Shown: positions 21,562 through 36,519 of the stretch, piece by piece
How positions within the stretch are numbered: the first letter of the stretch is position 1
Layout of the letters: each line of letters begins with the position of its first letter
From: Acidobacteriota bacterium
GTDB lineage: Bacteria; Acidobacteriota; Aminicenantia; Aminicenantales; Saccharicenantaceae
Direction: 5' to 3'
Length of the DNA stretch: 48,035 nucleotides
Assembly (NCBI GenBank): GCA_029553365.1
Contig: JAKPCG010000177.1
Coordinates: 1 to 48,035, forward strand
The notes under the pieces: model-generated
The model's database searches: none
What the model saw: the letters and a program-made list of their open reading frames with translations, nothing else
What the model was told of the DNA's origin: nothing
Translations under genes and position numbers: made by a program

Positions 21562-21913
21562 TGGTGGAGGCGGCGGGAATCGAACCCGCGTCCGGAGGCA
21601 TTCCACAGTCAGCCTCTACAGGCTTATCCTCTTCCTTGTATCTTGTTGAGCGATTCTCGAAGAGGAAGAGCATCACTCAACCAGCTCAAGAGTTAGTTCA
21701 TCCGGCGAGCCCTGAGCACGCCCGCCAGACTATCCTGCTCAACGGCGTCTCGACCAGCCCGCAGGAAGAGCTGGCGGAGACGGCTGCACTTTCTATCAGG
21801 CAGCGACTGCAACAGGTTCTGCAGTTAATTTTTTCCCACCTGTTTAACGAGGTTGATGGGACCTCGGCCTGCAGCTTCTGCTTCACTACCTCCGTCGAGT
21901 CCATTTCGCCCCC
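21562..21913 (-). ncRNA. ssrA: tmRNA (one-piece)
   Basis: The 5' end reads GGGGGCGAAATGGACTCGACGGAGG, the conserved tmRNA start. The 3' end reads GGGTTCGATTCCCGCCGCCTCCACCA. GGGGGCG pairs with CGCCTCC to make the acceptor stem, and CCA is encoded. The total is 352 nt. After the TTAACT context a resume codon GCA (21822) opens GCAGAACCTGTTGCAGTCGCTGCC then TGA TAG, encoding AEPVAVAA, so the peptide tag is A-AEPVAVAA. The ending VAA suits ClpXP recognition. The tag is short compared with the usual ten or so encoded residues. A T7 run follows the CCA. The RNA rescues stalled ribosomes. Confidence 0.96.
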
Positions 21914-21998: not shown

Positions 21999-23063
21999 TT
22001 AACTGGTCAGCGGCAAGGCGACATAGAAGGTCACCCATTTCCCCTGTTCTGATTCAAACCAGATCCGTCCTTTGTGGCTGTCAACTATCTTTTTGCAGAT
22101 ATAAAGTCCGAGACCGGAACCCTTGACTCCTTCTGTTCCGGGCTGTTTTAACCTTTCAAATTTCCTGAAAAGGCGCTGTCCATCCTCGGGTCTTATCCCC
22201 ACCCCCTCATTGTAGACAGAAAAAATCATTTCATTATCTTTCTTTTCCAGGCCAAGTTTGACTTCTGTACCTTCATATCCATACTTGATAGCATTGTTGA
22301 TAAGATTCCTGACCAGAATCTTCAACAGTCGTGGATCGCCGGTAATCTTGATGTCCTCCTGAAAATTTTTGGTAACCTTCATTTTCTTGCCATTGTCAGC
22401 TACTTCAGGCAGGTTGAGTACATCATCAACCACATCTTTGGCGAAATAGATTTCTTCTTTGAAGGCTGCCAGCTGATCCAGTTCCATTTTCGACAGATCT
22501 AAATAGCTGCGGATAATATCTTCAAGATATTCGCAGTTGCGGATAATTGTCTCCAGAATTTTCATCTGCTCTGGAGATAGCTGGCCAAAATAACCCTTGT
22601 AAAGCGTGGAGGCAGTGGTGTGAAGAGCAGAAAGCGGGCTTTTCAATTCGTGAGAGACAATAGCCATCAGGTCAAGCATATTGCGCTCTTTACCAGCCCG
22701 CGCCTCGAGCGCATTTTTGATGACCTCTCTCATTTCCTCCGGGGTAAAAGGCTTCGGAATATAATCGAAAGCTCCATTTTTCAAGGCTTCACGAGCTGTA
22801 TCAACGCTGGCATAACCGGTAAAAATGATCACCGTGGTATCCGGCCTGACCTTTCTCAACCTGGCCAGCACTTCCATGCCGCCAATTCCAGGCATTTTTA
22901 AATCAGTAACCACAATGTCATAATCTCCATTAATAGCTTTGCTCAGACCTTCTTCCCCAGATTGGGCGGTATCTATCTCATAATCTGAGCTGGCAAAAAT
23001 CCGCCGGCAACTGCGCAGGACGATTTCCTCGTCATCAATAAAGAGAATCCTTGGTTTGCTCAT
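21999..23063 (-). CDS. Hybrid receiver-histidine kinase (REC-HisKA-HATPase)
   Basis: This 354-residue soluble protein has an N-terminal receiver domain at about residues 1-120 with the acidic pocket (FIDDEE), phospho-acceptor Asp in DIVVTDLKMPG, and Lys in YIPKPFTPEE. A HisKA dimerisation helix follows with the phospho-accepting His in IVSHELKSPLSALH, then an HATPase domain with LINNAIKYG (N box), NEGVGI (G1) and GSGLGLYICKK (G2). There is no TM segment or DNA-binding domain. Receiver-then-kinase proteins act inside phosphorelays. It is the last gene of the hydrogenase operon, 19 bases after the membrane kinase. The downstream target is not in the window. Confidence 0.92.
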   Translation of the reverse strand: MSKPRILFIDDEEIVLRSCRRIFASSDYEIDTAQSGEEGLSKAINGDYDIVVTDLKMPGIGGMEVLARLRKVRPDTTVIIFTGYASVDTAREALKNGAFDYIPKPFTPEEMREVIKNALEARAGKERNMLDLMAIVSHELKSPLSALHTTASTLYKGYFGQLSPEQMKILETIIRNCEYLEDIIRSYLDLSKMELDQLAAFKEEIYFAKDVVDDVLNLPEVADNGKKMKVTKNFQEDIKITGDPRLLKILVRNLINNAIKYGYEGTEVKLGLEKKDNEMIFSVYNEGVGIRPEDGQRLFRKFERLKQPGTEGVKGSGLGLYICKKIVDSHKGRIWFESEQGKWVTFYVALPLTS

Positions 23064-23082: not shown

Positions 23083-25026
23083 CTAATCCACCGGCAATCT
23101 TATAATGAACTCTGTTCCCTCGCCGACTTTGCTCTTCACATCAATCGTACCATTATGTCGCTTGATGGCTCCATAAGCCATGGCCAGCCCCAGACCTGTA
23201 CCTTTACCTTTTTCCTTGGTGGTGAAAAACGGTTCAAAAATCCGCTGCAGATTTTCCTCGCTTATCCCCACACCGGTATCAGCCACTCTTATTATAACCT
23301 CCCCCGCCTCGGAATCATACGAGGTTGAAATGGTCAGCTGACCGCCCTGGGGCATAGCATCAGCGGCGTTAACGGCCAGATTATTGATAACTGACCGGAA
23401 TTCGTCAGCATCAATTCTAACCTCAGGCAAATTCTGATCAAGGTTTTTGACAATCTTAATATTCTGGAAACTGACGTGATTTTCTAAAATCTGCAGGGTC
23501 TCTTCAATGAGAGTATTAAGATCAACACTGACCTTTTCTGGTTTGTAGTCGCGGGCAAAATCCAGCAGACCCCTGACTATCTTACGACAGCGCAGAGTTT
23601 CTTCCGTAATGACTTTTAAATCTTCCTCGTAGGGAGTGCCCTTCAGCTCTTCCAGCAGCAGGCTGCTATAGGTCAGGATTCCAGTCAGCGGATTGTTGAT
23701 TTCATGGGCGATGCCTGCCGCCAGCCGTCCGATTGAGGCTAATTTTTCTGACCGCAAAATTGTCTTCTCGGCCAGTTCTTTTAAACGGTTATCTCTTTCT
23801 TCTATAGCTTTAACCATGGCATTAAAAGATTCTTCTACTTCTCTTATCTCCTCGCTTTCTTTAGGTGAGATATCTATCAGGTGATAATTTCCCCTGGCCA
23901 CTTCGGCGGTCAACTTTATCATTCTATTTATAGGTCGGGTATAGACATTGACCAGATAGGTGGAAATATAAATGGCGATCCCGGTCATCAGGAAAATCAG
24001 GACAAAATACAAGATAGTGGTCTGTCGCAGGATCTGATCAAATTTAGACTGAAGAATACCGACATATAGCATGCCGACTGGCTGACCTTCGATATCGCGC
24101 AGCAGAGTATAACCGGAAAGATAATAATCATTGACCACAAACGCCCGGCCGAGCCAATCCTTTCCCTGCTCAAAAACCTGGTGATAGACTTCCTCTGAGA
24201 CAATCGTCCCGACTGCTCTTTTCCCATCTTTGTCCAGGACATTGGTCGCCACCCGGACATCTTCCAGAAAAATGGTGGTGGTTCCAACGTCTTTGCCTTT
24301 TATTTTCTCTTCTTTAAAGATGAACCTTCTAAAACGGTCAACAAAACGTTCGTTATTGTTAAGCAACACAGCTGCATAGAGAACCCCGACCAGTCTATTT
24401 CTCTGAAATATCGGCACCACTGTTTTAAGGACCAGAGCTCTTTCCTCGACCTCCCGACGCATGGTCCTGGCCCGTGGGGTCGGAATAATATTTATCAGCG
24501 TTCTCTCGGCCAGATCAGGCCCTTCATTTTTTATATTTTCATAGCCAAGGATACCTGTGCCAGCAGCGGGTTTTTTGTTTTTTAGAACCCATTGAATAAA
24601 TTTATAATGAATAACACTGTCCCCATAAGCCTCAAAGTTGTTAGCTCGAACCAGAATAGTACCGTCGGGCTTAACCACATTGACAATATCGAAGCCGAAT
24701 TCTTCTTTGATCTGGACAAGTTTCTCATAGAGATATTCTCTATTGCCGGCGGCTGTGGCATTGACTATCTCTGAAGTCCTGGACAGATACTCCACTATTT
24801 TTGCCCTGGTATTGATTTCTTCCTGATAAAGATCGTTAATAGCCTTCAAGCTGTTGCGCAGATTATCATAGGCTTCTCTGATGACGTTGCGGTTAATTGA
24901 GTTGATACCAATATAAATAGAAAGAGCACCCATCAGGAAAACAATAGTCAGAAGGCCGGTGATCAGCTTGAAACGCAAACTGGATCTTAAGGCAGAAGTC
25001 TTGCTCAGGAATTCCTTAAGATCCAT
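23083..25026 (-). CDS. Membrane sensor histidine kinase with Cache-like extracytoplasmic domain
   Basis: This 647-residue protein has TM1 at about residues 20-40, then a roughly 290-residue periplasmic region resembling a Cache-type sensor. That region includes [18 protein letters not shown] and a second copy-like segment, [15 protein letters not shown]…[25 protein letters not shown]2 follows near residue 325, then HAMP, HisKA with [19 protein letters not shown], and HATPase with [20 protein letters not shown] and [13 protein letters not shown]. Cache domains bind small organic ligands, and the ligand here is unknown. It starts one base after the stop of the receiver gene. It is likely the input of the phosphorelay controlling or controlled by this operon. 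Confidence 0.92.
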
Positions 25027-25027
25027 G

Positions 25028-25438
25028 TTATTTTTTGAGGTTTTTCTCTATCTTTTCCAATAGCTCGTCAGGGTCAACCGGTTTATTCAGAAACTCATTG
25101 CGGCCAGGTAAAAAGCTCTCTTCCTGATCAAGAGAAAATCTGGAGTTAGTCACCTGGTCAATAGCGGTCAGGATAATGATGGGAATATCCCTAAAATCTT
25201 TAAATCTGGAATCTGGGCGATCACTTCTGATTTTATAAATAGCTTCAAAGCCAGCTGTGTCTGTTTCCATCATAACATCCATAATGACCAGGTCCGGTTT
25301 CGTTTCCAGCAATTTTTTCAAACCTTCTGCCCCGCTATAAGCAACCACCACCTCATAGCCTTTAAGACTTAAGATCTGACTTAAGGTGCCGGTCAGGTCA
25401 CGGTCGTCATCAACCAGTAGTATTCTGGCCATGGTCAT
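25028..25438 (-). CDS. Single-domain response regulator (CheY-like)
   Basis: This 136-residue receiver domain has no output domain: LLVDDDRDL (acidic pair), DLVIMDVMMETD (phospho-acceptor), IIILTAI (Thr) and NKPVDPDELLEKI (Lys). Its ATG overlaps the stop of the NiFe small-subunit gene (ATGA), tying it to the hydrogenase operon at the translational level, and the sensor kinase follows one base later. It probably shuttles phosphate between kinases or acts by protein contact. Confidence 0.93.
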   Translation of the reverse strand: MTMARILLVDDDRDLTGTLSQILSLKGYEVVVAYSGAEGLKKLLETKPDLVIMDVMMETDTAGFEAIYKIRSDRPDSRFKDFRDIPIIILTAIDQVTNSRFSLDQEESFLPGRNEFLNKPVDPDELLEKIEKNLKK

Positions 25439-25995
25439 TTCCTCCCGGGAAGAAGGCGGTCATCTTCCTCGCCCAGAAGTTTATATATAACCCGGTTGCT
25501 TTCCAGAATTTTTGACTGTCGGTACATATCAACCGGAAACTCCATTTGTTTGAGCTCGACCGGTGCCACTTTCTTGTCAACCAGGCCCAGGGCCAGCGCC
25601 ACCCCGAAAATAATGGCTTCCGGTCGAGGCGGACAGCCCGGGATAAAATAATTGACAGGAATGGCTTTATCCCCGCCACCGGTCACGTTGTAAGTATCAT
25701 ACCAGCATCCCCCGCCGATAGCACAGGAGCCGACAGCAAAGACCAGCTTCGGGGCCGGCACCGCCTGATAGGCTTTCTTGACCAGAGGCAACGTCGGTCT
25801 GGTCACCGCCCCCGAGAGTAGAATAGCATCAGCATGACGGGGAGAAGCAACCAGCCTGATACCGAATCTCTCCACATCATAATAGGGCGTTAAAACATTG
25901 AGGATTTCTATGTCGCAGCCATTGCAGGCTCCGCTGTTGCAATGATAAACCCAGACCGAGCGGCGAAAAGCTTTTTCCGTTAGTCTTTTCCACAT
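25435..25995 (-). CDS. Group 4 [NiFe]-hydrogenase small subunit (HycG/HyfI/EchC-like, NuoB family)
   Basis: This 186-residue subunit should carry the proximal [4Fe-4S] cluster next to the NiFe site. The cluster ligands are visible: HCNSGACNGCDIEIL (CxxC), AVGSCAIGGGCWYD, and FIPGCPPRPEAI. It is short, as in complex-I-related hydrogenases, with no Tat signal and no distal cluster domain. It overlaps the upstream Fe-S protein gene by 16 bases and the downstream receiver gene by four. Together with the large subunit it forms the catalytic core on the cytoplasmic face of the membrane arm. Confidence 0.94.
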   Translation of the reverse strand: MWKRLTEKAFRRSVWVYHCNSGACNGCDIEILNVLTPYYDVERFGIRLVASPRHADAILLSGAVTRPTLPLVKKAYQAVPAPKLVFAVGSCAIGGGCWYDTYNVTGGGDKAIPVNYFIPGCPPRPEAIIFGVALALGLVDKKVAPVELKQMEFPVDMYRQSKILESNRVIYKLLGEEDDRLLPGRK

Positions 25996-26543
25996 GGCGA
26001 TTTCTCCAGTTTTTCAGGACGTCGATAAGTAGCCGTTTTTTCCAGAAGCTCGGGTTCCAATTCAGGCGTTGATTGCCTTATGACTTTTCTGGCTTCCAGG
26101 CTATCATAACGGTAGCCAAGCATTTGCAGCTTATCGAGGGCATTCTTTATTTCCAGGTCGAAGCAGCGACCGCAGCGCTGACAGGTCATCATAAACAGCT
26201 CCATAGTCTCTGTTATATCCTGGCGATGATCGGTGGCCAGCTCAAAATTTTCGCTCATGGTAATGGCTTTTTCCGGGCAGAGGTCAGCACATCGACCGCA
26301 ATACGTGCAGCGAGACGAATCATAAAGAAGAATCCTTATTTCCTGACAGATATCACGGAGGAAAATGGTTCTGGCCGGGCAGTTGCTGGCACAGCCGGCA
26401 CAGCCAATACATTTGGTATGATCCCAGACAGGCTGGCCGCGAAAACCGGCAGGAGCCGGCCTGGGCTTATATGGATAACGCAGGGTAACTACCCCTGTCC
26501 TGGAAGGAATGGCCAGTTGTTTGATTTTATTCCAGAGCCACAT
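25980..26543 (-). CDS. Hydrogenase [4Fe-4S] electron-transfer subunit (HycF/HyfH/NuoI-like)
   Basis: This 187-residue subunit has two classic ferredoxin motifs: CIGCAGCASNCP at about residues 41-52 and CTYCGRCADLCP at about 77-88. These wire electrons to the small subunit. The C-terminal half carries an additional CQRCGRCFD (about residues 119-127), which could bind a further cofactor or zinc. The ATG lies 21 bases after the NuoH-like gene. No TM segments are present; an amphipathic start (MWLWNKIKQLAI) could touch the membrane. Confidence 0.92.
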   Translation of the reverse strand: MWLWNKIKQLAIPSRTGVVTLRYPYKPRPAPAGFRGQPVWDHTKCIGCAGCASNCPARTIFLRDICQEIRILLYDSSRCTYCGRCADLCPEKAITMSENFELATDHRQDITETMELFMMTCQRCGRCFDLEIKNALDKLQMLGYRYDSLEARKVIRQSTPELEPELLEKTATYRRPEKLEKSPCGKD

Positions 26544-26564
26544 TTTAACCCCTGCCTTTCATTA

Positions 26565-27464
26565 TCACCAGCCCTTGACCGCACAACCAACCGCTATCAG
26601 GGCTAAAATTAAAAGCAAAGCGTAATATTTTAAAGCCTGGTCTATTCTAAAACGTGGATGAGTCGCTCCGATAAGAGAAATTAAGACGAAGACCACGATA
26701 ATCAGCACTGTTTGCAGGAGCAGACTGAGAAAAAAATTGGCCGGCAAAATAAAACTTAAAAAGGAAGAGATAAGAAGCCAGGCATAAAACATTCTCTTAA
26801 GATTTAAAGTATAACGGAGCAAAGCATAATTGGGTCCGCTATATTCCATATAGGGACCTTCCAGAATTTCAACTTCAGCTTCAGCAATATCAAAAGGCTG
26901 TCTGGCGACAAAAGCCTGAAGAGCCAGAAGATAAACAACCAGCATCAGAAAATAGGAGACACCTCTGCTGACCGCCACGCCTGACACAGCAGCGGTCAAA
27001 GAAAAGCTACTGATTCTTACTGTGCCCAGAATTAAGAGCATGGCCAGAACCGGTTCGAGCATAACCGTGGTCATCATTTCGCGGCTGGCTCCGACCGCAG
27101 CAAAGGGATTCCCACTGGCTAAAGCACCAACCAGCAGACAGAAACCGCTCAGGGTCAAAAAATAAATCAGGGTCATTAAGTCTGACGAATGAGCTAAAAT
27201 ATTGGCCTGACCGGTTAGAGGGATAAGGGCAATAGCCGCCAGCATTGAGCTGAAGGACAGAACAGGTGCCAGAGAGTAGGCCCAGTTCCCGCCGGAATTT
27301 AAATTTTCCTTGCCCAGAAGTTTCAGAAGATCAAGATATGGCTGATATAGCGGTGGACCTTTCCTCGATTGAATCCAGGCGGTTAGCTTTCTCATCACCC
27401 CTTCCAGAAAAGGGGCCAGCAGCAGAAAATAGATTAAATTAATGAAGACAGCCACAACCTTCAT
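26565..27464 (-). CDS. Hydrogenase membrane subunit (HycD/HyfC/EchB-like, NuoH family)
   Basis: This 299-residue protein of about eight TM helices forms the heel of the membrane arm, where the peripheral hydrogenase core docks. Diagnostic segments are WIQSRKGPPLYQPYLDLLKLLGKE near the N-terminus, the conserved VGASREMMT loop, and FDIAEAEVEILEGPYMEYSGP with the acidic residues implicated in coupling. Its ATG overlaps the stop of the large-subunit gene by four bases. It is expected to couple redox chemistry to proton or sodium movement. Confidence 0.93.
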   Translation of the reverse strand: MKVVAVFINLIYFLLLAPFLEGVMRKLTAWIQSRKGPPLYQPYLDLLKLLGKENLNSGGNWAYSLAPVLSFSSMLAAIALIPLTGQANILAHSSDLMTLIYFLTLSGFCLLVGALASGNPFAAVGASREMMTTVMLEPVLAMLLILGTVRISSFSLTAAVSGVAVSRGVSYFLMLVVYLLALQAFVARQPFDIAEAEVEILEGPYMEYSGPNYALLRYTLNLKRMFYAWLLISSFLSFILPANFFLSLLLQTVLIIVVFVLISLIGATHPRFRIDQALKYYALLLILALIAVGCAVKGW

Positions 27465-29152
27465 GTCTTAGACCTCATCTCTCTGGACAGTTTTTCCAGC
27501 TCCTGTCGGCTTAAAATTCTGCCGGAAGCTGATCTTCTGTCTATAACCGCCACTCGGTCTGTACAGGAAATGCAGGGATCAATTGAGCCAACTATAATGG
27601 GAAAATCAGCCAGCTTGTTGTTTAACAACATGTCAGGTACAGCCTGAAGGTTGGGATAAGTTGGTGCTCGTACCCGCCAGCGTTCTGGACGGTTATCATC
27701 ACCGGTAAGAACATAATGGACTGCTTCTCCCCGCGGTGCCTCTACTACCGACAATCCCTGTTGACCGGCTGGAATAGGATCTTCTATCTCAATAGCGAGA
27801 GGAGAACCCTGAAGCCTAGAAGCCAGTTTTTCCAGGCACTGATGGATTATCCTTATGGCCTCATAAATCTCTTTAATCCTGACCACCAGTGTTCCCCAGA
27901 CATCACCAGAATCAGCCACCACGACCTCAAATTTCACCTCGTCATAGGCAGCATAAGGATGGTCTCTCCTGGCATCTATATCCAGCCCGCGGGCTCTGGC
28001 CACCGGCCCTACCAGATTCCACTCCTTCGCCTTTTCTCTGGAGAGATAACCCACACCTTTAGTTCTCCTGTGGATAGACTTATCCTTTATAATAGCTTTT
28101 TCCAGAGCCTGCACATCTTTTTCAACTTCAGCCAGGGTTTTCTTAATCAGCTCAGCTTTGGTCAGATCAATATCACGCCTTACGCCCCCGATGATGACCA
28201 TGCCGTAAGTCTTCCTGTTGCCGGTCAGGCTTTCGGCCAGCCACATTATTTTCTCTCTTATTCTCCAGGCCTGCATAAAAACCGTATCAAAGCCGATCAG
28301 ATGGCCGGCCACTCCCAGCCACATCAGGTGGGAATGAAGCCTTTCTATTTCCAGCATAATTGTTCTGATAAACTCAGCCCGCCGGGGAATTTTAAGGCCC
28401 GAAGCCGCCTCCACTGCCTGGGCATAATTGACCGAATGCACCGAACCGCAGATCCCGCAGATCCGTTCAGCTACAAAAGGTATTTCATTATAAGTCAGCT
28501 CCGTTGCCGCTAATTTTTCAATGCCCCGATGAACCATAAAACCTCTGTACTCACAGCCCTTAATTTCTTCTCCATCTACATAAACAGCAAAATGAGCAGG
28601 CTCATGCAGACAGGCATGAAAAGGTCCAAAGGGAATTATAGAACTGCCAGGTGGAGCCTCGTCGAGCCGAAAAGCTACCTCTTCGGCCGCAGGCGGCATC
28701 AGATCATAAGGGACCTCCTGGCGTAGAGGATAAATTCCCTCCGGCCAGTCATCAGACAGTACCAGGCGTTTGGGATGGGGATGATTTTTAAAATGAAGTC
28801 CGAGAAGGTCAATATATTCACGCTCTGACCAGCCAGCACCGGGAATGAAAGGAGTAAGCGAATCAAATTCTGGCTCATCTTCTGTCGTCAAAGCCCTGAT
28901 CGCCACCAGTAGTGAATCAGCATCGAAGGCAAAGGTGTGAACCATGGCCAGACCCCGGCCATTCTTTCTGGCCTCATAGCCAACACCCATCTGATAACGG
29001 GCACCCGCTCTCATCAGCTGGTTGGCCGTCTCGACCAATGCTTCTTTTTTTATATCAATAAACAGACGGTTTTCTTCCAGACTGCTTGCCGCCAGAAAAT
29101 TTCCTTTTAATTCATCCTTAAGCAGGTTCAGCAATTCATCTTTTCTGCTCAT
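27461..29152 (-). CDS. Group 4 [NiFe]-hydrogenase large subunit with fused NuoC domain (HycE/HyfG-like)
   Basis: This 563-residue fusion has a NuoC-like domain in about residues 1-165 (ending near HPHPKRLVLSDDWPEGIYPLR) and a NuoD/HycE-like catalytic domain after it. Both NiFe-binding cysteine pairs are intact: ERICGICGSVHSVNYAQ and IDPCISCTDR. This is therefore a real hydrogenase and not a complex-I NuoD. Thirty residues follow the second motif (starting VAVID), the expected C-terminal extension removed by a maturation protease, which is encoded in the same operon. It overlaps both neighbours by four bases. The reaction is reversible H2 formation with low-potential electrons. Confidence 0.95.
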   Translation of the reverse strand: MSRKDELLNLLKDELKGNFLAASSLEENRLFIDIKKEALVETANQLMRAGARYQMGVGYEARKNGRGLAMVHTFAFDADSLLVAIRALTTEDEPEFDSLTPFIPGAGWSEREYIDLLGLHFKNHPHPKRLVLSDDWPEGIYPLRQEVPYDLMPPAAEEVAFRLDEAPPGSSIIPFGPFHACLHEPAHFAVYVDGEEIKGCEYRGFMVHRGIEKLAATELTYNEIPFVAERICGICGSVHSVNYAQAVEAASGLKIPRRAEFIRTIMLEIERLHSHLMWLGVAGHLIGFDTVFMQAWRIREKIMWLAESLTGNRKTYGMVIIGGVRRDIDLTKAELIKKTLAEVEKDVQALEKAIIKDKSIHRRTKGVGYLSREKAKEWNLVGPVARARGLDIDARRDHPYAAYDEVKFEVVVADSGDVWGTLVVRIKEIYEAIRIIHQCLEKLASRLQGSPLAIEIEDPIPAGQQGLSVVEAPRGEAVHYVLTGDDNRPERWRVRAPTYPNLQAVPDMLLNNKLADFPIIVGSIDPCISCTDRVAVIDRRSASGRILSRQELEKLSREMRSKT

Positions 29153-31047
29153 TCTATTTCACCTTTTTGCTGACTATCAGGCAAAACAGCCAGCTCATTA
29201 TCGTCAATAACCTTTTTAGGCGATCCGCCCGTCCACCAGAAAAATTTCTTTAAATCAGAGAAGACATGACGGTCAGCATAAACATTGTTCGAATTTAAGT
29301 CCTGATATCCAGAAAGCCAGGCAGGAACTTTGATTTCGGCTGGATGCGCCGATCGGCTAAACCAGTAGGCCAGGAAAGCTAATAAAACAATAAGAAACAG
29401 CATTAAAAGCGGGGAAGTGGCAGCCAGGAGGCTCTGGCCGTCATAAATTTTCAAATTGAGCATATTTCCACTCAGTACATCCCCACCAGCTTCAGGCAAA
29501 AGAAAGCCAGAAGAAAGCCCAAGACTCCGGTTAATCAGTTTAACATAGCCCATAGGAAGAAAAGCCTGGCTCAAGCAAATGATGGTCAGGAAGATTTCAG
29601 AAGCCAGCAACTTCCAGGGAACTTCCTTGATGCTCTTTTTTAATTTCCAGCTGGCCCCGGCCGAAGTAAAAGCCAGACCGAAGAACTTGACATAGCAGGC
29701 TAAGGTAAAAGCAGCGGTGAATAGAGCAATAATACCGGATAGTGTCAGCAGCAAGCTGTTCCGGCCGGCCAGAAAATTAGAAGAAATCATTAACCATTTG
29801 CTGACAAAACCACTGGAAGCTGGCATACCAGAGATAGAATAAGAGGCAATGGCTGCCAGAAAGCCACTAACTGGCATGACAGCCAGCAGCCCCCCCAGGC
29901 GGTTCAAATCACGTGTGCCGGTGGCATAAAGGAGGTTTCCTCCCAGTAGAAAAAGAAGACCCTTAAAAATGCCGTGGTTAAGGCTATGATAAACAGCAGC
30001 GATAAAAATAACTGAGGCCAGGGATTTGGCCAGCAGAGAAGAACTATTCCAGGCGAGCAAACTACTCCCCAGAGCAAAAATTATGTAGCCGACCTGCCCG
30101 ATCGAGCTATAAGCCAGAAGACGGAGATAGTCGCTCTGCTTGATAGCCTGAACAGTACCAATGAAAAGCGTTAGTACTCCAGCCACCACCAGTACTTTTC
30201 CCCAGAGTTCAGGATTAAAAGCTGCGCCTGCATTTTTGGCCACAAAGAAAAAAATCCGGATTAACCCGAAAACGCCGGTCTTTTCCAGAATACCGGCCAG
30301 AAGAGAAGAGACCTGAGGCCAGGCAGTCGAATAGGCTTCGGGGATCCACCACTGTCCAAAAGGGAAAACTCCCGTTTTTATTCCGAAGCCCAGGAAGAGG
30401 AGGCTGAAAAATAAGATAGCCTGCCAGGGACCACTCTGTGCGAGCTTCAAGCCAACAGTACCCAGCGAATCACCAAATACATAGCCTTTGGCCAGGAAAG
30501 CAGAACCCGTAATCAGAAGCCAGGCGGCTTCCATAAAAAGAAGATAAACTAAAGCCGGCCGGGCAGAAATTTTAACCGGCCTTCCCCATCTAACCAGGAG
30601 ATAAGAAGAGATAACCATTAACTGCCAGGCCAGGGTAAAACCTGGTCCAAGATCATCAACGGTAAGCAGTCCGGCCAGACCACCAATAAACAGGGGCAAG
30701 ACCAGATAAAACTTCCACAGTTCGTCGGCTTTATATTTTTTGACAAAATCCAGCGAAAAAAAGACCGAGGCCAGGGTTAATATGGCCAGAAGAAGGAGAA
30801 AAAGAGCTGATAAGCCATCAATTAAAAATGGCAGATGAAAAGCTGCGACTTTAACCTCGAACTCAAAGGGCAATCCTCCTTTCCCGAGGATGGATAGGGA
30901 GATTAAGATCAGTATCAAGCAACTCAGACCGAGCAGGAAAGTCCCTGCCGGGCGAAGGTAATTAGCTTTCTTCTTCAGGATCAGAGCCAGGAAGGAAGCC
31001 AGAAGCAAACTCAGCCAGAACAGCCAGAAACCTGACAGGGTAGTCAT
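29149..31047 (-). CDS. Hydrogenase antiporter-like membrane subunit (HycC/HyfB, NuoL family)
   Basis: This 632-residue polytopic membrane protein has the Mrp/NuoL core: WQLMVISSYLLVRWG, a lysine-bearing helix (FGIKTGVFPFGQWWIPEAYSTAW), LAYSSIGQVGYIIFALG, SLNHGIFKGLLFLLGGNLLYATGTRDLNRLGGL, and ISGMPASSGFVSKWL. It is the only antiporter-like subunit in the operon, which suggests one ion channel as in formate hydrogenlyase and Ech-type enzymes, not the several of complex I. The C-terminal portion holds extra TM helices and a hydrophilic tail. It overlaps the large-subunit gene by four bases and abuts the protease gene. Confidence 0.93.
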   Translation of the reverse strand: MTTLSGFWLFWLSLLLASFLALILKKKANYLRPAGTFLLGLSCLILILISLSILGKGGLPFEFEVKVAAFHLPFLIDGLSALFLLLLAILTLASVFFSLDFVKKYKADELWKFYLVLPLFIGGLAGLLTVDDLGPGFTLAWQLMVISSYLLVRWGRPVKISARPALVYLLFMEAAWLLITGSAFLAKGYVFGDSLGTVGLKLAQSGPWQAILFFSLLFLGFGIKTGVFPFGQWWIPEAYSTAWPQVSSLLAGILEKTGVFGLIRIFFFVAKNAGAAFNPELWGKVLVVAGVLTLFIGTVQAIKQSDYLRLLAYSSIGQVGYIIFALGSSLLAWNSSSLLAKSLASVIFIAAVYHSLNHGIFKGLLFLLGGNLLYATGTRDLNRLGGLLAVMPVSGFLAAIASYSISGMPASSGFVSKWLMISSNFLAGRNSLLLTLSGIIALFTAAFTLACYVKFFGLAFTSAGASWKLKKSIKEVPWKLLASEIFLTIICLSQAFLPMGYVKLINRSLGLSSGFLLPEAGGDVLSGNMLNLKIYDGQSLLAATSPLLMLFLIVLLAFLAYWFSRSAHPAEIKVPAWLSGYQDLNSNNVYADRHVFSDLKKFFWWTGGSPKKVIDDNELAVLPDSQQKGEIE

Positions 31048-31586
31048 CAGCCTTTCTCCCTTTCAACCTGAATTGTTGTCTGTTCGCCCACCTTTTCAAG
31101 AGGTGCAGCTTTATCCAGGATCTTTTCAAAAATGGTTATCAGTTCGTCGGTGATCTTTTTGATATGAGGAGTCAATTCCTGGCCAAAACTGGTGGTTTCA
31201 GGAACAACACCCAGGAGAAAAACCTTCTTACCAGTCTTCTCCAGCAGCTGAGCGGTTAACCTCAGGGATAATTTATGAGTCGAAACAATCTGGCTGACCT
31301 CTTCCAGCTCAGCCAGCGGACCAAATATAACTGTGCCGGCTGGCGCATCGAAAAGAACAGCATCTATGAAAATTACATTCTCAACATCTTTTTGAGCCAG
31401 GGGGAAGGCATAATTTTCAGGCACATCTTCAACAACTAGCAGGTTATCGGAAGGAAAGAGTATTTTTGTCTTAATCGACTCTATAAAATACAGGCCAAAA
31501 CCGTCATCACCGCGCAATTTATTGCCGATGCCGACCAGACAGGTTCGACCGGCCAGGACTTGCTGCAAATTCTCGAGGGCTTCCAT
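31047..31586 (-). CDS. Hydrogenase maturation protease (HycI/HydD family)
   Basis: This 179-residue endopeptidase trims the large-subunit C-terminus after nickel insertion. The family motif is VGIGNKLRGDDGFGLYFIE, with metal-sensing Asp in the GDD, followed by VENVIFIDAVLFDAPAGTV (second acidic ligand) and STHKLSLRLTAQLLE (His ligand). It starts directly at the stop of the HydG-like gene. Its presence agrees with the 30-residue extension on the large subunit. The hypABCDEF factors are not in the window. Confidence 0.92.
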   Translation of the reverse strand: MEALENLQQVLAGRTCLVGIGNKLRGDDGFGLYFIESIKTKILFPSDNLLVVEDVPENYAFPLAQKDVENVIFIDAVLFDAPAGTVIFGPLAELEEVSQIVSTHKLSLRLTAQLLEKTGKKVFLLGVVPETTSFGQELTPHIKKITDELITIFEKILDKAAPLEKVGEQTTIQVEREKG

Positions 31587-32426
31587 TTAGATCTGCTCTC
31601 CCAGAGTTCTAATTTGCTTATAAGTGTAAACAGGTCCATCCACACAGACCAGTGTCCGGCCTATAGCGCAATGTTGGCATTTGCCAATCCCGCATTTCAT
31701 ATGCCTTTCCAGGGTTGAATAAATATTCTGCTCTTTTATCCCTTTTAGTTTGAGTTCTTTAATCACAGCGTTAAACATGACGGGTGGCCCGCAAACAAAG
31801 GCCACTGTGTTGGACACCGGCAGATCAAGTTTAGCCGTCAGATGATTGACAAAACCAACTTCTCCAGACCAGCCCGGTTCTGGCCTATCAATTGTAAAGT
31901 GAGTCTCAAAGTTTTCTGTCGCCTGCCATTCTTTTATGCTCTCCTTGTACATCAATTCCTTTGAGCTTTTGGCCCCGTAAACCAGGATGACCCGACCAAA
32001 ATCCTGTCGGTGCTGGAGGACATGAACAATCGACGAGCGAAGTGGAATCAGACCGATCCCTCCCGCCACATAGATGATATTGCTTCCCTTTATTTCTTCG
32101 AAAGGAAAACCATTGCCAAAGGGGCCCCTGACCCCGATTTTGTCGCCCGGTTCGAGCCGATGCAGAGCAGCAGTTACTTTCCCCACCCTCCTCACCGAAA
32201 TATGCTTGCGGTCATTCTCGGGACTGAAAGGCAAAGAAACAGCGAATTCGCCTGCTTTAAAAACAGTGCACATAATAAATTGACCGGAGCGGATTTTAAA
32301 AGCCTCCTCGATTTCTGGCCGGTCGAGAGTGAAATAAAAGCTTTTGACCTCTTCAATTTCATCCCTGATATCAACGATAGTGGCAATTTCTGGAATAGAG
32401 ACTATGGGCACTAAACTTTTATTCAT
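31587..32426 (-). CDS. FAD/NAD(P)-binding oxidoreductase, sulfhydrogenase gamma (HydG)/AsrB-like
   Basis: This 279-residue flavoprotein of the ferredoxin-NADP reductase fold has an FAD-binding barrel (LPFSPENDRKHISVRRVG), a nucleotide-binding half (IIYVAGGIGLIPLRSSI, VILVYGAKSSKE, AFVCGPPVMFNAVI) and a C-terminal [2Fe-2S] site (MKCGIGKCQHCAIGR…VCVDGP). It is predicted to exchange electrons between NAD(P)H and the HydB-like iron-sulfur subunit encoded just upstream (five bases apart). In sulfhydrogenases and sulfite reductases this pair is the pyridine-nucleotide entry module. Here it is linked to a membrane group 4 hydrogenase. Confidence 0.92.
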   Translation of the reverse strand: MNKSLVPIVSIPEIATIVDIRDEIEEVKSFYFTLDRPEIEEAFKIRSGQFIMCTVFKAGEFAVSLPFSPENDRKHISVRRVGKVTAALHRLEPGDKIGVRGPFGNGFPFEEIKGSNIIYVAGGIGLIPLRSSIVHVLQHRQDFGRVILVYGAKSSKELMYKESIKEWQATENFETHFTIDRPEPGWSGEVGFVNHLTAKLDLPVSNTVAFVCGPPVMFNAVIKELKLKGIKEQNIYSTLERHMKCGIGKCQHCAIGRTLVCVDGPVYTYKQIRTLGEQI

Positions 32427-32431
32427 AGCTT

Positions 32432-33499
32432 TTATTCTCCAGATTCTCCAGTTATTTCACGTCTGATGTAGGTTACGACATTAGGCAAACCTATATCACC
32501 GGGACAGACTCTGGCACATCGACCGCAACCAACACAGCCAGGGCGAAGATATTTTTTTGACTGCGAATAAGAAAGCTTGCAGAAGAATCTCTTATTGCGG
32601 CGGTCTTCGACCGGTTTCCTTGGATTGTTATCACCGGCCATTTTCGTATAACCTTCAAACGAACAGGAATCCCAGGTCCTCAGGCGGTTGGTCTCCCCGC
32701 TGGCCAGATTAGCATCCTCAATATTAAAACAGGAGCAGGTGGGACAAACAAAAGAGCAGGCTCCGCACTCAAAACACTGATTACCGATATATTCCCAGAC
32801 CTCAGGTTTGATAAAGCCGGTGGTCAACCGATTGGTCGCCCGAGAAATCCAGGCCTTGTTTTCCAGGGCAAAGCGATCAAACGAAGAGACAGAATCATCT
32901 ACAATTTTTTTCTTCAGGGTTAAAGCTTCCGGGCCTGCTTCAGGCAGGTGAAGATCGGCAATTAAAGCCAGGCCTTTTTTTGAACCAGCTTCAACCAGGT
33001 AACCGCGTCCGGTAAAAGTCAAATCCAGATCAAAACCATCTTTAGCCGCCGGCCCGCTATCCGTACAGACACAGAAACACTGAGGAAACGGACGCAGACA
33101 GGTATTGGAGATAATGAACAGCTTTTTTCGGTGAGCCAGATAAAATTCATCAACATATTCCTGGTCGAGGAAAAAGCGATCGAGACAGAGTAAACCAGTC
33201 AGATCGCAAGATCTCAAACCAATTAAAGCCTTCGGTTCGAGAAGATTGATCTGTTCAATTCTGACTTCTTTTGTCTCTGGCTGGTAGCGATATTTAAGAA
33301 TTTCTTCATAGTGAGGGAAAAGAATAAATTTGGGTGGGTTATAAGGAATGGCCGCCTGCAAATCCAGCTCGGACCAGTCAGACAGATGATCAAAGATCAC
33401 CTCACCAGATACACGGTCATGGCGCGGACCAAAAATTTTATACTCTTCGGCCAGTTTTTTAACCAGCAACAGTAACTGTTCCTTTGTCAGCCAGTACAT
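32432..33499 (-). CDS. Iron-sulfur subunit, sulfhydrogenase beta (HydB)/AsrA-like
   Basis: This 355-residue protein has a family-specific N-terminal half (EYKIFGPRHDRVSGEVIFDHL; FILFPHYEEILKYRY; LIGLRSCDLTGLLCLDRFFLD) and two ferredoxin-type clusters: CFECGACSFVCPTCSC at about 240-255 and CVGCGRCARVCPGDIG at about 322-337. HydB/AsrA proteins pass electrons between the HydG-like flavoprotein and the catalytic unit. It sits between the molybdopterin-type gene (three bases upstream) and the HydG-like gene, so the three probably form one soluble module. Confidence 0.92.
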   Translation of the reverse strand: MYWLTKEQLLLLVKKLAEEYKIFGPRHDRVSGEVIFDHLSDWSELDLQAAIPYNPPKFILFPHYEEILKYRYQPETKEVRIEQINLLEPKALIGLRSCDLTGLLCLDRFFLDQEYVDEFYLAHRKKLFIISNTCLRPFPQCFCVCTDSGPAAKDGFDLDLTFTGRGYLVEAGSKKGLALIADLHLPEAGPEALTLKKKIVDDSVSSFDRFALENKAWISRATNRLTTGFIKPEVWEYIGNQCFECGACSFVCPTCSCFNIEDANLASGETNRLRTWDSCSFEGYTKMAGDNNPRKPVEDRRNKRFFCKLSYSQSKKYLRPGCVGCGRCARVCPGDIGLPNVVTYIRREITGESGE

Positions 33500-33502
33500 A
33501 GC

Positions 33503-35521
33503 TTAAACCACCTTTTCCAATCTGACCGGCAGAAAGAACTCCTCGTTCTTTTCTAAGTCAGCCACCTGCCGGTGAAGAAATTCTGGAATCATTTCATCAA
33601 TAAAGTAAGGTATATAAAGCATACCGGGCAGAATATCGCCTGAAATTCTGGCGGCCAGCCTGACCTCAGCCGATTCAGCCACCACCCTCACCATTTGTTT
33701 TTCTCTCAAGCCAAGACGGCTGGCATCTTCTGTCGAAATTTCAACAAAACCTCTGGGATAAAGAAGGAGAAGGGCATTATATTCGCGTTTGGGGATAAAA
33801 GTTCTTTTCATGACGGAATTCTGGTGCCAGAAATAATTGCTCCGCCCCACTACTAATTTAAAGGGAAACTCTTTTTGAATCTCCGGCTCACCGGTCAGTT
33901 TTTCCTCCTGGCCGTTTACCTGAACAAATTGAAAGCGCCGGCCTGCTTCTTCTACCAGCAAGCAATCTGTACCTTCAGGATGAAGATCATCCGCTGGCCA
34001 TTTCAAGCCAAGTCTGGTCTTGAGTTTTTCGTAACTCAGACCTTGATAATAAGGAATCAGCTGACTTATCTCACCCATGATGCTTTCAACCGAATGATAA
34101 TTCCAGTCATGCCCGAGAGCCAGGGCCAGGTTAGTCAGAGTTTTCCATAAGGGACGTACCCCGGCTGGGGGCTCGATTCTTTTCTGAACCAGCTGAACTC
34201 GACGTTCAGAGTTGGTATAAGTTCCATCCTCTTCAATGTAGCTCGTTCTGGGAAAAATAACATGAGCCAGAGAGGCAAACGGATTCTCATAAGCACCAAA
34301 ATAAACTATTAAATCAAGCTGTCTTATTCGGTTGACATGTCTGATAATTTCCTCATCATGATCAACAACAAAAAGAGCCTTTATATCTTTCTCTTCCGAC
34401 AGGCAGGTGTCGACATTCTTACCTGGCCAGCGCTCCAGCCTGGTCTGCCAGAAATTTTCGAGTCTCTCCCAGGCCAACTCATCCTCAACCGAAGCGTAAC
34501 CAGGCAGGAAAACAGGCGAAAGGCCCATATCATAGCTGCCCAGAAGATTACTGATGCCAGTAACGGGATTTATCCCGCTGCCACGTCGTCCAATTTTCCC
34601 GGCTAAAAGGAAAAGGTTAAAGAGAGCAGCCATTGTTCGGCGATCAAGACTCTGCACTCCGGTTGGGTAAAAGGCATAAGCTGAATTAGATTCTATTAAC
34701 TTTTCAGTCAATTCAGTCATCTCTTCTCTGCTTATACCGGTCAGCTCTACTATCTTTTCAATTTCGATCTGCTTTAACTCGTCGAGAAAAGCCTGACTGT
34801 TGACTGTAAACCTTGACAGGTAATCATCATCAATAGCCTTCTCCTCAACCAGAACTCTGGCTAAACCCTGGAGCAGGTAAAAAATTGTTCCCGGCCTGGG
34901 TCTAAGATGTAGCTGGCTGAGTCTGGCCATTTGCGTCTTCCGGGGAGAAATGGTTGCTAAAAAAGTCCCGCCTCGATGGGCATGATGGATTTCGCTGGCG
35001 ATAATCGGATTCTGCTTGGTCAGGTCGCCGCCGACAACCAGGATAAAATCAGCCTGTCTCAATTCAGCCAGCGTCCCGGTCATGGCTGGCCAGCCACAGC
35101 CCTCAAGAAGCACCCTGGCACTTTCTTCCTGACCGGCATCAGACGATAGGCTTAGATTATTTGTTTTCAGGATCGTCCTGGCAAACTTACCCAGCAGATA
35201 ATTCTCTTCGTTAGAGGCCCGAGGAGAACCAAGAACAGCTAGCTGGCGGCCAGACAGTTTTTTTACCTTTTCCACCACATAATCAAGAGCTTCTTCATAA
35301 GAGACAGGCTTGAAACTGCCACCGTCTTTAATGAGGGGCTGGGTAATTCTATCTTCCGTCTGCAAGAGCTCGTGAATATGCCAGCCGCGGACACATAGCC
35401 GGCCACGACTCAATGGATGACCGGACACGGGATAAACACCTCTTACCCGGTTGCCTTCCACCCGCAGCAGGTGGCCACAACCAGTACCGCAGAAGTTGCA
35501 TATACCTCGATAATAAGGCAA
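33503..35521 (-). CDS. Molybdopterin oxidoreductase-family subunit (FdhF/NuoG-like) lacking formate dehydrogenase active-site residues
   Basis: This 672-residue protein has an N-terminal [4Fe-4S] domain (ICNFCGTGCGH then GRLCVRGWHIHELLQ), the MGD-binding body (DFILVVGGDLTKQNPI, RPRPGTIFYLLQGLA), and a C-terminal molydopterin dinucleotide-binding barrel (GRSNYFWHQNSVMKR, YPRGFVEISTEDASRLGL). Formate dehydrogenases have a Sec/Cys-His pair in 'ARVC/UHAPS'. The aligned stretch here is SSDAGQEESARVLLEG with no Cys, Sec codon or His. The 'NPLRGQNN' Arg is also replaced (INPVTGISN). It is therefore more likely an electron-transfer or structural subunit, like complex I NuoG, than a formate dehydrogenase. 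No linked ferredoxin-like HycB was found. Confidence 0.85.
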   Translation of the reverse strand: MPYYRGICNFCGTGCGHLLRVEGNRVRGVYPVSGHPLSRGRLCVRGWHIHELLQTEDRITQPLIKDGGSFKPVSYEEALDYVVEKVKKLSGRQLAVLGSPRASNEENYLLGKFARTILKTNNLSLSSDAGQEESARVLLEGCGWPAMTGTLAELRQADFILVVGGDLTKQNPIIASEIHHAHRGGTFLATISPRKTQMARLSQLHLRPRPGTIFYLLQGLARVLVEEKAIDDDYLSRFTVNSQAFLDELKQIEIEKIVELTGISREEMTELTEKLIESNSAYAFYPTGVQSLDRRTMAALFNLFLLAGKIGRRGSGINPVTGISNLLGSYDMGLSPVFLPGYASVEDELAWERLENFWQTRLERWPGKNVDTCLSEEKDIKALFVVDHDEEIIRHVNRIRQLDLIVYFGAYENPFASLAHVIFPRTSYIEEDGTYTNSERRVQLVQKRIEPPAGVRPLWKTLTNLALALGHDWNYHSVESIMGEISQLIPYYQGLSYEKLKTRLGLKWPADDLHPEGTDCLLVEEAGRRFQFVQVNGQEEKLTGEPEIQKEFPFKLVVGRSNYFWHQNSVMKRTFIPKREYNALLLLYPRGFVEISTEDASRLGLREKQMVRVVAESAEVRLAARISGDILPGMLYIPYFIDEMIPEFLHRQVADLEKNEEFFLPVRLEKVV

Positions 35522-35599: not shown

Positions 35600-36112
35600 C
35601 TAATCTTGTAAACTGTTTAAGTTCAGACGCGAAATAAAAATGCTCAGAAGATACCTGGTGTTGTAAAGAGTTGAGATCCCTCCCAGGAACCTTTCTTTAA
35701 TCATACCCTTGGGCAATTCGTCGATGGCCGCTTTCAGTTCGTCCAGTGAAGCCTGCAGGCGACTGAAAGAAGAAACGAGAAGCGGCAGGTCTCCCGAACG
35801 TTGGTAATCGTCCAGGAGTCCGGCTATTGATTCGGGCTGATCAAAAGCCCGTCTGAAAAAATCCTTAACTGCAGCCGGCAGCCCGGCCAGGGCCTTTTCC
35901 AGCAGACAGCATCTGGCCAGTTGATAACCAAGCCTGACTTCATCCAGGTCTCTTTTAACAAATTTCTCTGGATGAAGTTCAAAATAAGCCTGCCCCAGGG
36001 CTTCCATTTGCCGGCTGTCCAGATCAAAATCACCGCCCAGCTTTCTGACCTCCTGGCAAAAGACTTCCAGATCTGAATTTTGCCGAAAAAGGTCAGCCAG
36101 AGAAATACTCAT
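35600..36112 (-). CDS. Unknown all-helical protein at the head of the hydrogenase operon
   Basis: This 170-residue protein is not recognised. It has no signal peptide, TM helix or cysteine cluster. The sequence is a succession of amphipathic helices (LADLFRQNSDLEVFCQEVRKLGG; RQMEALGQAYFELHPEKF; FSRLQASLDELKAAIDELPKGM). It lies 29 bases after a single-domain receiver and 78 bases before the molybdopterin-type gene, all on one strand. Its size and position suggest a partner of the receiver or a dedicated assembly chaperone for the Mo-type subunit, comparable in role to the TorD family of helical chaperones. No TorD motif is clear, so this is a guess. Confidence 0.7.
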   Translation of the reverse strand: MSISLADLFRQNSDLEVFCQEVRKLGGDFDLDSRQMEALGQAYFELHPEKFVKRDLDEVRLGYQLARCCLLEKALAGLPAAVKDFFRRAFDQPESIAGLLDDYQRSGDLPLLVSSFSRLQASLDELKAAIDELPKGMIKERFLGGISTLYNTRYLLSIFISRLNLNSLQD

Positions 36113-36141: not shown

Positions 36142-36519
36142 TCAGGACTTTTTTCTGTGTTTTTCAATTACACCGAGCAGCAAATCGAAATTGACCGGCT
36201 TCTGAAAAACTCCATTAAAACCTAACTCGTCAAGACCAATAGTTCGGGCGGTGGCATCACCGATAGTACTTAACAGAAAAACTGGCAGCTCAGGTTGTTC
36301 TTTCTTGATCACCCCGGCCACTTTTGCCCCGGCATCTATGTCTTCCATCATCATATCGCATAGAACAATATCTGGATGAACCTGATGGAAAAGCTCAAGC
36401 CCTTCCTTCCCACTTAAGGCTGTGAACACCTCATAGCCACTGGCTTCCAGAATAGCTTTAACTGAAACACAAATAGCCGGATCGTCATCTATCACCAGAA
36501 TTTTGGTTTTATCAGGCAT
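36142..36519 (-). CDS. Single-domain response regulator (CheY-like), first gene of the hydrogenase operon
   Basis: This 125-residue receiver has ILVIDDDPAI (acidic pair), DIVLCDMMMEDID (phospho-acceptor Asp), FLLSTIGDATA (Ser/Thr) and FQKPVNFDLLLGVIE (Lys). AGGAGG lies four bases before the ATG. It resembles the second receiver in the operon (DxMME-D motif after the acceptor), hinting at duplication. It has no DNA-binding output. It lies downstream of tRNA-Asp on the same strand, with no convincing separate promoter in the 180-base gap. Confidence 0.92.
   Translation of the reverse strand: MPDKTKILVIDDDPAICVSVKAILEASGYEVFTALSGKEGLELFHQVHPDIVLCDMMMEDIDAGAKVAGVIKKEQPELPVFLLSTIGDATARTIGLDELGFNGVFQKPVNFDLLLGVIEKHRKKS

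Follow-up and report, generated by a model that had tools for sequence, protein, structure and literature searches.

A conserved operon of Aminicenantes and Spirochaetota probably encodes a membrane NAD(P)H:H2 oxidoreductase with a noncatalytic formate dehydrogenase homologue

We analyzed a stretch of 48,035 nucleotides (contig JAKPCG010000177.1, called the window here) from a metagenome-assembled genome (G000, 74.5% complete) of Candidatus Saccharicenans, in the Aminicenantes, Acidobacteriota. Its minus strand carries an operon in which a formate hydrogenlyase-type hydrogenase is accompanied by two sulfhydrogenase-like subunits and by a homologue of the formate dehydrogenase FdhF. Judging from the sequences, the operon probably encodes a membrane NAD(P)H:H2 oxidoreductase with a group 4 [NiFe] hydrogenase of the formate hydrogenlyase clade, in which a catalytically dead FdhF would act as a wire or scaffold resembling NuoG. 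The product is probably not a formate hydrogenlyase, because the catalytic residues of formate dehydrogenase (Fdh) are lost and MobA is missing in ten Saccharicenans genomes that carry the operon and are at least 90% complete.

Pfam and NCBIfam profiles were used to annotate the proteins of the window. The hydrogenase consists of a HycE-like [NiFe] large subunit with a fused NuoC-like domain (27461..29152), a HycD/NuoH-like membrane subunit (26565..27464), a HycF-like subunit with two [4Fe-4S] clusters (25980..26543), a HycG/NuoB-like small subunit that has all four proximal-cluster cysteines (25435..25995) and a HycC/HyfB-like antiporter-type membrane subunit (29149..31047), together with a HycI-type maturation protease (31047..31586). 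All are on the minus strand, as are the other genes described below. The original prediction, made from the letters of the window, had proposed a core of the formate hydrogenlyase type. The profiles agree with this, as do the 421-bit match of HycE to 7z0s_E and a small large-subunit tree, in which HycE falls inside the clade that holds E. coli HycE and HyfG, apart from membrane-bound hydrogenase (MBH). The range proposed for the system (29149-35521) does hold the genes for HycC, HycI, HydG, HydB and the FdhF-like protein, but those for HycE, HycD, HycF and HycG lie just outside it, at 25435-29152.

The features of a group 4 [NiFe] hydrogenase are present, namely both CxxC ligand pairs, a NuoB-like small subunit and membrane subunits. 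Conserved throughout the family are the NiFe ligands, the clusters of HycF and HycG, and the E-channel of HycD (Glu130, 138, 199, 201 and 206 as well as Tyr102, in E. coli numbering). Of 34 genomes, 31 have the maturation gene hypD; the genome of the window has a fragment of it at the end of a contig. The same genome encodes another group 4 [NiFe] hydrogenase (L170, G000:C143:248-4310). It has separate NuoB-, NuoC-, NuoD-, NuoH- and ferredoxin-like genes and a protease, and the tree places it with the MBH of Pyrococcus furiosus rather than in the formate hydrogenlyase clade.

Upstream of these genes are a HydB/AsrA-like iron-sulfur subunit (32432..33499; Fer4_22, with 152 bits to sulfhyd_ShyB and 149 bits to AsrA) and a HydG/AsrB-like subunit with FAD, NAD(P) and [2Fe-2S] sites (31587..32426; FAD_binding_6, NAD_binding_1 and DHODB_Fe-S_bind). 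Both are homologous to sulfhydrogenase subunits over nearly their full length, and both miss every equivalog cut-off. The matches to the P. furiosus sulfhydrogenase (9nez_B for HydB, E=9e-37; 9nez_C for HydG, E=1e-54) and the domains agree with the identities and cofactors originally proposed. In a comparison of 26 family members, almost all of the 18 cysteines of HydB are kept, and HydG conserves the sequences GGIGLIPLR and CGPP and four cluster cysteines. Given these conserved FAD, NAD(P) and [2Fe-2S] motifs and the HydB cysteines, the soluble partner is likely to be NAD(P)H, as had been predicted. The HydG motif gave no reading of a preference for NADH or NADPH. The further suggestion of confurcation with ferredoxin is unsupported: the lone FAD protein belongs to the sulfhydrogenase/AsrB type, and we know of no bifurcation by that type. 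The catalytic subunits HydD and HydA of group 3b sulfhydrogenases are absent from the operon, whose hydrogenase genes are Hyc-type, and the Pfam scan found no AsrC siroheme subunit in it. Nor is there a HycB-type ferredoxin linker gene between the FdhF-like gene and hycG, consistent with the original prediction.

Several lines of evidence support the idea that HydBG is part of the membrane hydrogenase. The 37 complete operons compared, from Aminicenantes and Spirochaetota, have the nine core genes in the same order, and this order recurs in most Saccharicenans, in further Aminicenantes and in Spirochaetota, far beyond chance. Across the 37 operons, pairwise distances of HydB (0.84), HydG (0.79) and the FdhF-like protein (0.92) correlate with those of HycE, although part of such a correlation is expected from shared ancestry alone. 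FdhF-HydB-HydG genes are present in 16 of 19 Saccharicenans genomes; each of these 16 has exactly one PF17179-type HydB above the cut-off, located in the operon, and the other three have none. We therefore rejected chance adjacency, and the evidence opposes the condition that had been named as refuting the prediction, in which the HydBG genes come from an unrelated soluble enzyme. G090 and a genome of the Terriglobia (L136) carry more distant HydBG-FdhF-Hyc operons, whose large subunits are near the family in the tree.

It is nevertheless conceivable that HydBG and FdhF form a separate soluble enzyme and that the hydrogenase is merely adjacent. HydBG do build soluble hydrogenases with HydD and HydA, apparently so in G020, a genome of the same taxonomic family that lacks the hybrid operon and has a soluble-type HydB-HydG-HydD-HydA hydrogenase (L171, 2045-9460 in G020:C461). 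Moreover, FdhF, HydB, HydG and HycI are retained in G017 (L063/L095, contig C5, ~344100-350500), where hycE, hycD, hycF and hycG have been removed. The deletion, which fuses part of hycC to part of a kinase gene, is either real or an assembly error. However, HydB of the operon is only ~31% identical to the soluble HydB of G020, and a hydrogenase that lacks HycB would then have no linker. Together with the gene order held in two phyla and the correlated divergence, this makes a separate enzyme highly improbable.

The original prediction identified the added module as HydBG. HydB and HydG are confirmed, but a third partner was missed, so that the module is more accurately described as FdhF-like, HydB and HydG. 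The FdhF-like protein (33503..35521; 672 aa, TTG start) scores 422 bits with TIGR01591, below the cut-off of 666 bits. It carries a single N-terminal [4Fe-4S] cluster bound by C8, C11, C15 and C43, four ligands that are invariant across 26 diverse members. At the positions of the molybdenum ligand, Arg333 and Lys44, it has Gly, Thr and Arg, respectively. We aligned 18 members of the family with E. coli FdhF, F420-dependent FdhA, FdhF of the hydrogen-dependent CO2 reductase and two true FdhA proteins from relatives. The changes are K44 to R, U/C140 to G/W, R333 to T/A/P/V and Q335 to I/V/L. The Cys or selenocysteine that binds molybdenum, the catalytic Arg and the Lys between cluster and pterin are gone in every family sequence examined (~45 genomes), and the catalytic His is not conserved. 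A misread selenocysteine or a single broken copy was rejected as an explanation, as all aligned members have Gly or Trp at position 140 and the frames are open. The family has also gained a motif of its own, WHxNxxMxxxxxPxREYN, at residues ~565-582. Outside the family, a Dehalococcoidia locus (L139, 10001-11905) encodes another FdhF-like protein that lacks the Cys-His pair; a HydG-like gene (28% identity) is nearby.

The FdhF-like protein appears to be an FdhA that has become noncatalytic independently of NuoG. The AlphaFold2 model (pLDDT 85, pTM 0.89) is closest to true formate dehydrogenases (Z 40-42; 1aa6, Z 40.7). A phmmer search with the protein of the window gave FdhA first (336 bits) and NuoG far lower, and among columns invariant in true Fdh the FdhF-like protein keeps 52%, as compared to 29% for NuoG. 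This fold match and these similarities point to an FdhA origin. In a tree with NuoG, the NuoG branches are very long and the deep forks open, so that the tree cannot decide between the two origins and the case for an independent one relies more on similarity scores.

If the complex were a functional formate hydrogenlyase to which an NAD(P) module had been added, with formate oxidation feeding both H2 and NAD(P)H, this would explain why the fold is that of a true Fdh and why the Fdh-alpha model tops the NCBIfam matches. The Cys-His pair is even retained in the distant G090 operon, but G090 also lacks the Arg. Since the family lacks the Mo ligand, Arg333 and Lys44 and most Saccharicenans lack MobA, we consider this reading very unlikely, and an ordinary formate hydrogenlyase is rejected on account of the lost Fdh residues. 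FdhD was found in none of 62 genomes, to which we attach little weight, since G034 also lacks it despite having a true FdhA.

The supply of the molybdenum cofactor is instructive. MobA is required for the bis-molybdopterin guanine dinucleotide cofactor, and the tungsten cofactor of aldehyde:ferredoxin oxidoreductase is independent of MobA. Among the 16 Saccharicenans with FdhF-HydB-HydG genes, only four (G000, G007, G016 and G017) have a MobA-like gene (at least 103 bits). None was found in the other 12, among which are the ten near-complete genomes mentioned above, and a protein query with the MobA-like gene of G000 gave an agreeing distribution in Saccharicenans. Each of the four genomes has a further well-scoring molybdopterin-oxidoreductase gene or gene fragment. 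In the two surroundings that were read (L158, 1118-4918 in G000:C48, and L159 in G017:C7), the MobA-like gene adjoins a DmsC-like gene and HD-domain-like genes are also present. MobA seems to track this reductase cluster. Gene roles in the cofactor clusters were judged from sequence by eye, and only some were scanned with profiles. G018 has only a MobA-like remnant of 60 aa that contains a stop, and in G002 MoaA, MoaC, MogA and MobB genes lie near an aldehyde:ferredoxin oxidoreductase-like gene.

In the oxidoreductase that we propose, the FAD of the HydG-like subunit would take electrons from NAD(P)H, and these would pass from the [2Fe-2S] cluster of HydG through the HydB clusters, HycF and HycG to the [NiFe] site of HycE. 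HydB would thereby fill the linker role of HycB. The FdhF homologue, having lost formate chemistry, could be a scaffold, a [4Fe-4S] side wire or both, as NuoG is in complex I, and HycC and HycD would link turnover to the membrane. The sequences themselves show the gene content, the cofactor motifs, the loss of the Fdh catalytic residues, and that the genes are conserved and have co-evolved as a unit; from these we infer the assembly of the complex, its electron path and NAD(P) as the partner. The path would be reversible, so that a flow from H2 to NAD(P)+ is also conceivable. Making H2 from NADH is energetically unfavorable under standard conditions and comes close to equilibrium where H2 is low, as in syntrophic habitats. 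Thus, the net direction could be either the removal of NADH from fermentation as H2, perhaps assisted by the proton-motive force, or H2 uptake.

This energetic barrier is one of several points that weigh against our proposal. Another is the persistence of FdhF-HydB-HydG in G017 without most of the hydrogenase. A third is that the FdhF-like protein, because it retains more of the Fdh-invariant columns than NuoG does, may still bind a pterin. Finally, a MobA-like gene that scores below the curated cut-off is present in all but one of 21 Spirochaetota genomes. A pterin may therefore be present in the FdhF-like protein of Spirochaetota, and the MobA test is informative for Saccharicenans but not for Spirochaetota. 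These genes would suit a molybdenum or tungsten enzyme for another substrate, with a metal ligand other than Cys, coupled by HydBG to NAD(P)H and the hydrogenase. Residues S108, N114 and E115 in the region of the nucleotide loop are kept, and the family-wide motif suggests selection for function. However, Gly or Trp at position 140 is unsuited as a ligand, and MobA is absent from the ten near-complete Saccharicenans that carry the operon. We regard such an enzyme as unlikely, though less so than a working formate hydrogenlyase.

The ion movement that was originally suggested is weakly supported, and ion coupling is possible. The Glu in transmembrane helix (TM) 5 of HycC, which is present in E. 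coli HycC and HyfB, G090 and L136, is Gln in 26 of 26 family members, which also counts against the proposal in that it questions coupling. E. coli HycC has the inverse pattern, with Leu in TM7 and Glu in TM5 (PMC9474812). The lost Glu speaks for an NAD(P)H:H2 oxidoreductase without an ion pump, whose membrane arm is only an anchor or a proton supply, a variant compatible with our reading. We see this as a possibility, but doubtful, in that the Lys residues of TM7, TM8 and TM12 and the HycD E-channel are conserved.

Because the third partner is an FdhF homologue whose active site is lost, the system is more like complex I than a plain hybrid would be. Shared elements are a flavin-based NADH input, a degenerate Fdh-fold subunit (NuoG in complex I), counterparts of NuoI, NuoB, NuoCD and NuoH, and antiporter subunits; the Lys44 position is Arg in NuoG too. 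By contrast with complex I, the NiFe ligands are kept, the input is HydBG rather than NuoEF, and the FdhF-like protein scores nearer to FdhA than to NuoG. Neither a NuoE/NuoF module nor loss of the NiFe ligands, which mark complex I, was found in the operon. We tentatively suggest, at somewhat less than even chances, that a complex-I-like machine arose independently for a second time, from a formate hydrogenlyase-type hydrogenase and HydBG, with an Fdh decayed to a NuoG-like wire, the same module order and an active [NiFe] site. A separate cluster in G014 (L167, G014:C8:18014-24293) encodes NuoF-like, NuoG-like (839 aa), NfnA-like and NfnB/GltD-like proteins, and is possibly a bifurcating NADH/NADPH/ferredoxin enzyme (cf. 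NfnABC, 9bov).

The architecture has a precedent in Saganbacteria RX5A, in which a group 4 hydrogenase region contains asrA, asrB, cooF, Mrp-like genes and a molybdopterin protein (Matheus Carnevali et al. 2019, PMC6349859). That protein was called an Fdh by hidden Markov models, unconfirmed by phylogeny, and an Mbh-like role was proposed (PMC6349859). Compared by description only, the two systems share the group 4 [NiFe] hydrogenase, asrA, asrB and the Fdh-like protein, but RX5A has cooF and Mrp-like subunits, and the main text of PMC6349859 contains no active-site analysis. E. coli formate hydrogenlyase-1 (FdhF-HycBCDEFG, PMC9474812) has the same HycCDEFG core, with one HycC, one HycD, an FdhF homologue and HycI. 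The operon differs from it in missing HycB, in the added HydB and HydG, in the lost FdhF active site, and in having Gln in TM5 and Lys in TM7 of HycC instead of Glu and Leu. Moorella thermoacetica Fdh-Ech likewise clusters a group 4 hydrogenase with an Fdh homologue, but has catalytic FdhA, FdhB, HycB and five membrane genes, and HydBG is absent from the described cluster (PMC13040438). P. furiosus sulfhydrogenase I (9nez) uses HydB and HydG for NAD(P)H-FAD-FeS input, but is a soluble, FdhF-free enzyme with a HydD/HydA group 3 hydrogenase.

New here are an active site whose loss is conserved, the distribution of MobA, the change in HycC, and a family that spans uncultured bacteria of two phyla. 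The open-access literature yielded no account of the missing active site or of how its loss is conserved, none of the distribution of MobA or the change in HycC, and no paper joining Saccharicenans and hydrogenase. If our reading is true, the family would be a living case of a formate hydrogenlyase-type complex with an NAD(P)H module and a noncatalytic FdhF, making an evolutionary step testable in an expressible operon. Such operons would otherwise be miscounted as formate hydrogenlyase and formate metabolism misassigned in Aminicenantes and Spirochaetota. Should NAD(P)H be the donor, these fermenters could pass electrons from NAD(P)H to H2 at the membrane.

The full order on the minus strand, from 36519 to 21999, is receiver, 170-aa protein, FdhF-like, HydB, HydG, HycI, HycC, HycE, HycD, HycF, HycG, receiver, sCache histidine kinase and receiver-kinase hybrid. 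From the FdhF-like gene to the second receiver (35521 to 25028), neighboring genes overlap or are separated by at most about 25 bases. Both receivers are stand-alone response-regulator proteins; the upstream one is at 36142..36519, and the other (25028..25438) is kept 3′ of hycG in both phyla. The sensor histidine kinase with an sCache_3 domain (23083..25026) conservedly adjoins the operon, as does the receiver-histidine kinase hybrid (21999..23063) in Aminicenantes. An sCache-type kinase at the soluble hydrogenase locus of G020 (L171) is 37% identical to the kinase of the window. The 170-aa protein (35600..36112) is all-helical and conserved, and matches no known family; it has no Pfam match, and Foldseek gave no structural match at E<=0.001. 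It occurs with or near the operon in both phyla. Just 3′ of the operon is a transfer-messenger RNA gene (21562-21913), with a perfect sigma-70-like promoter match at 21952-21923.

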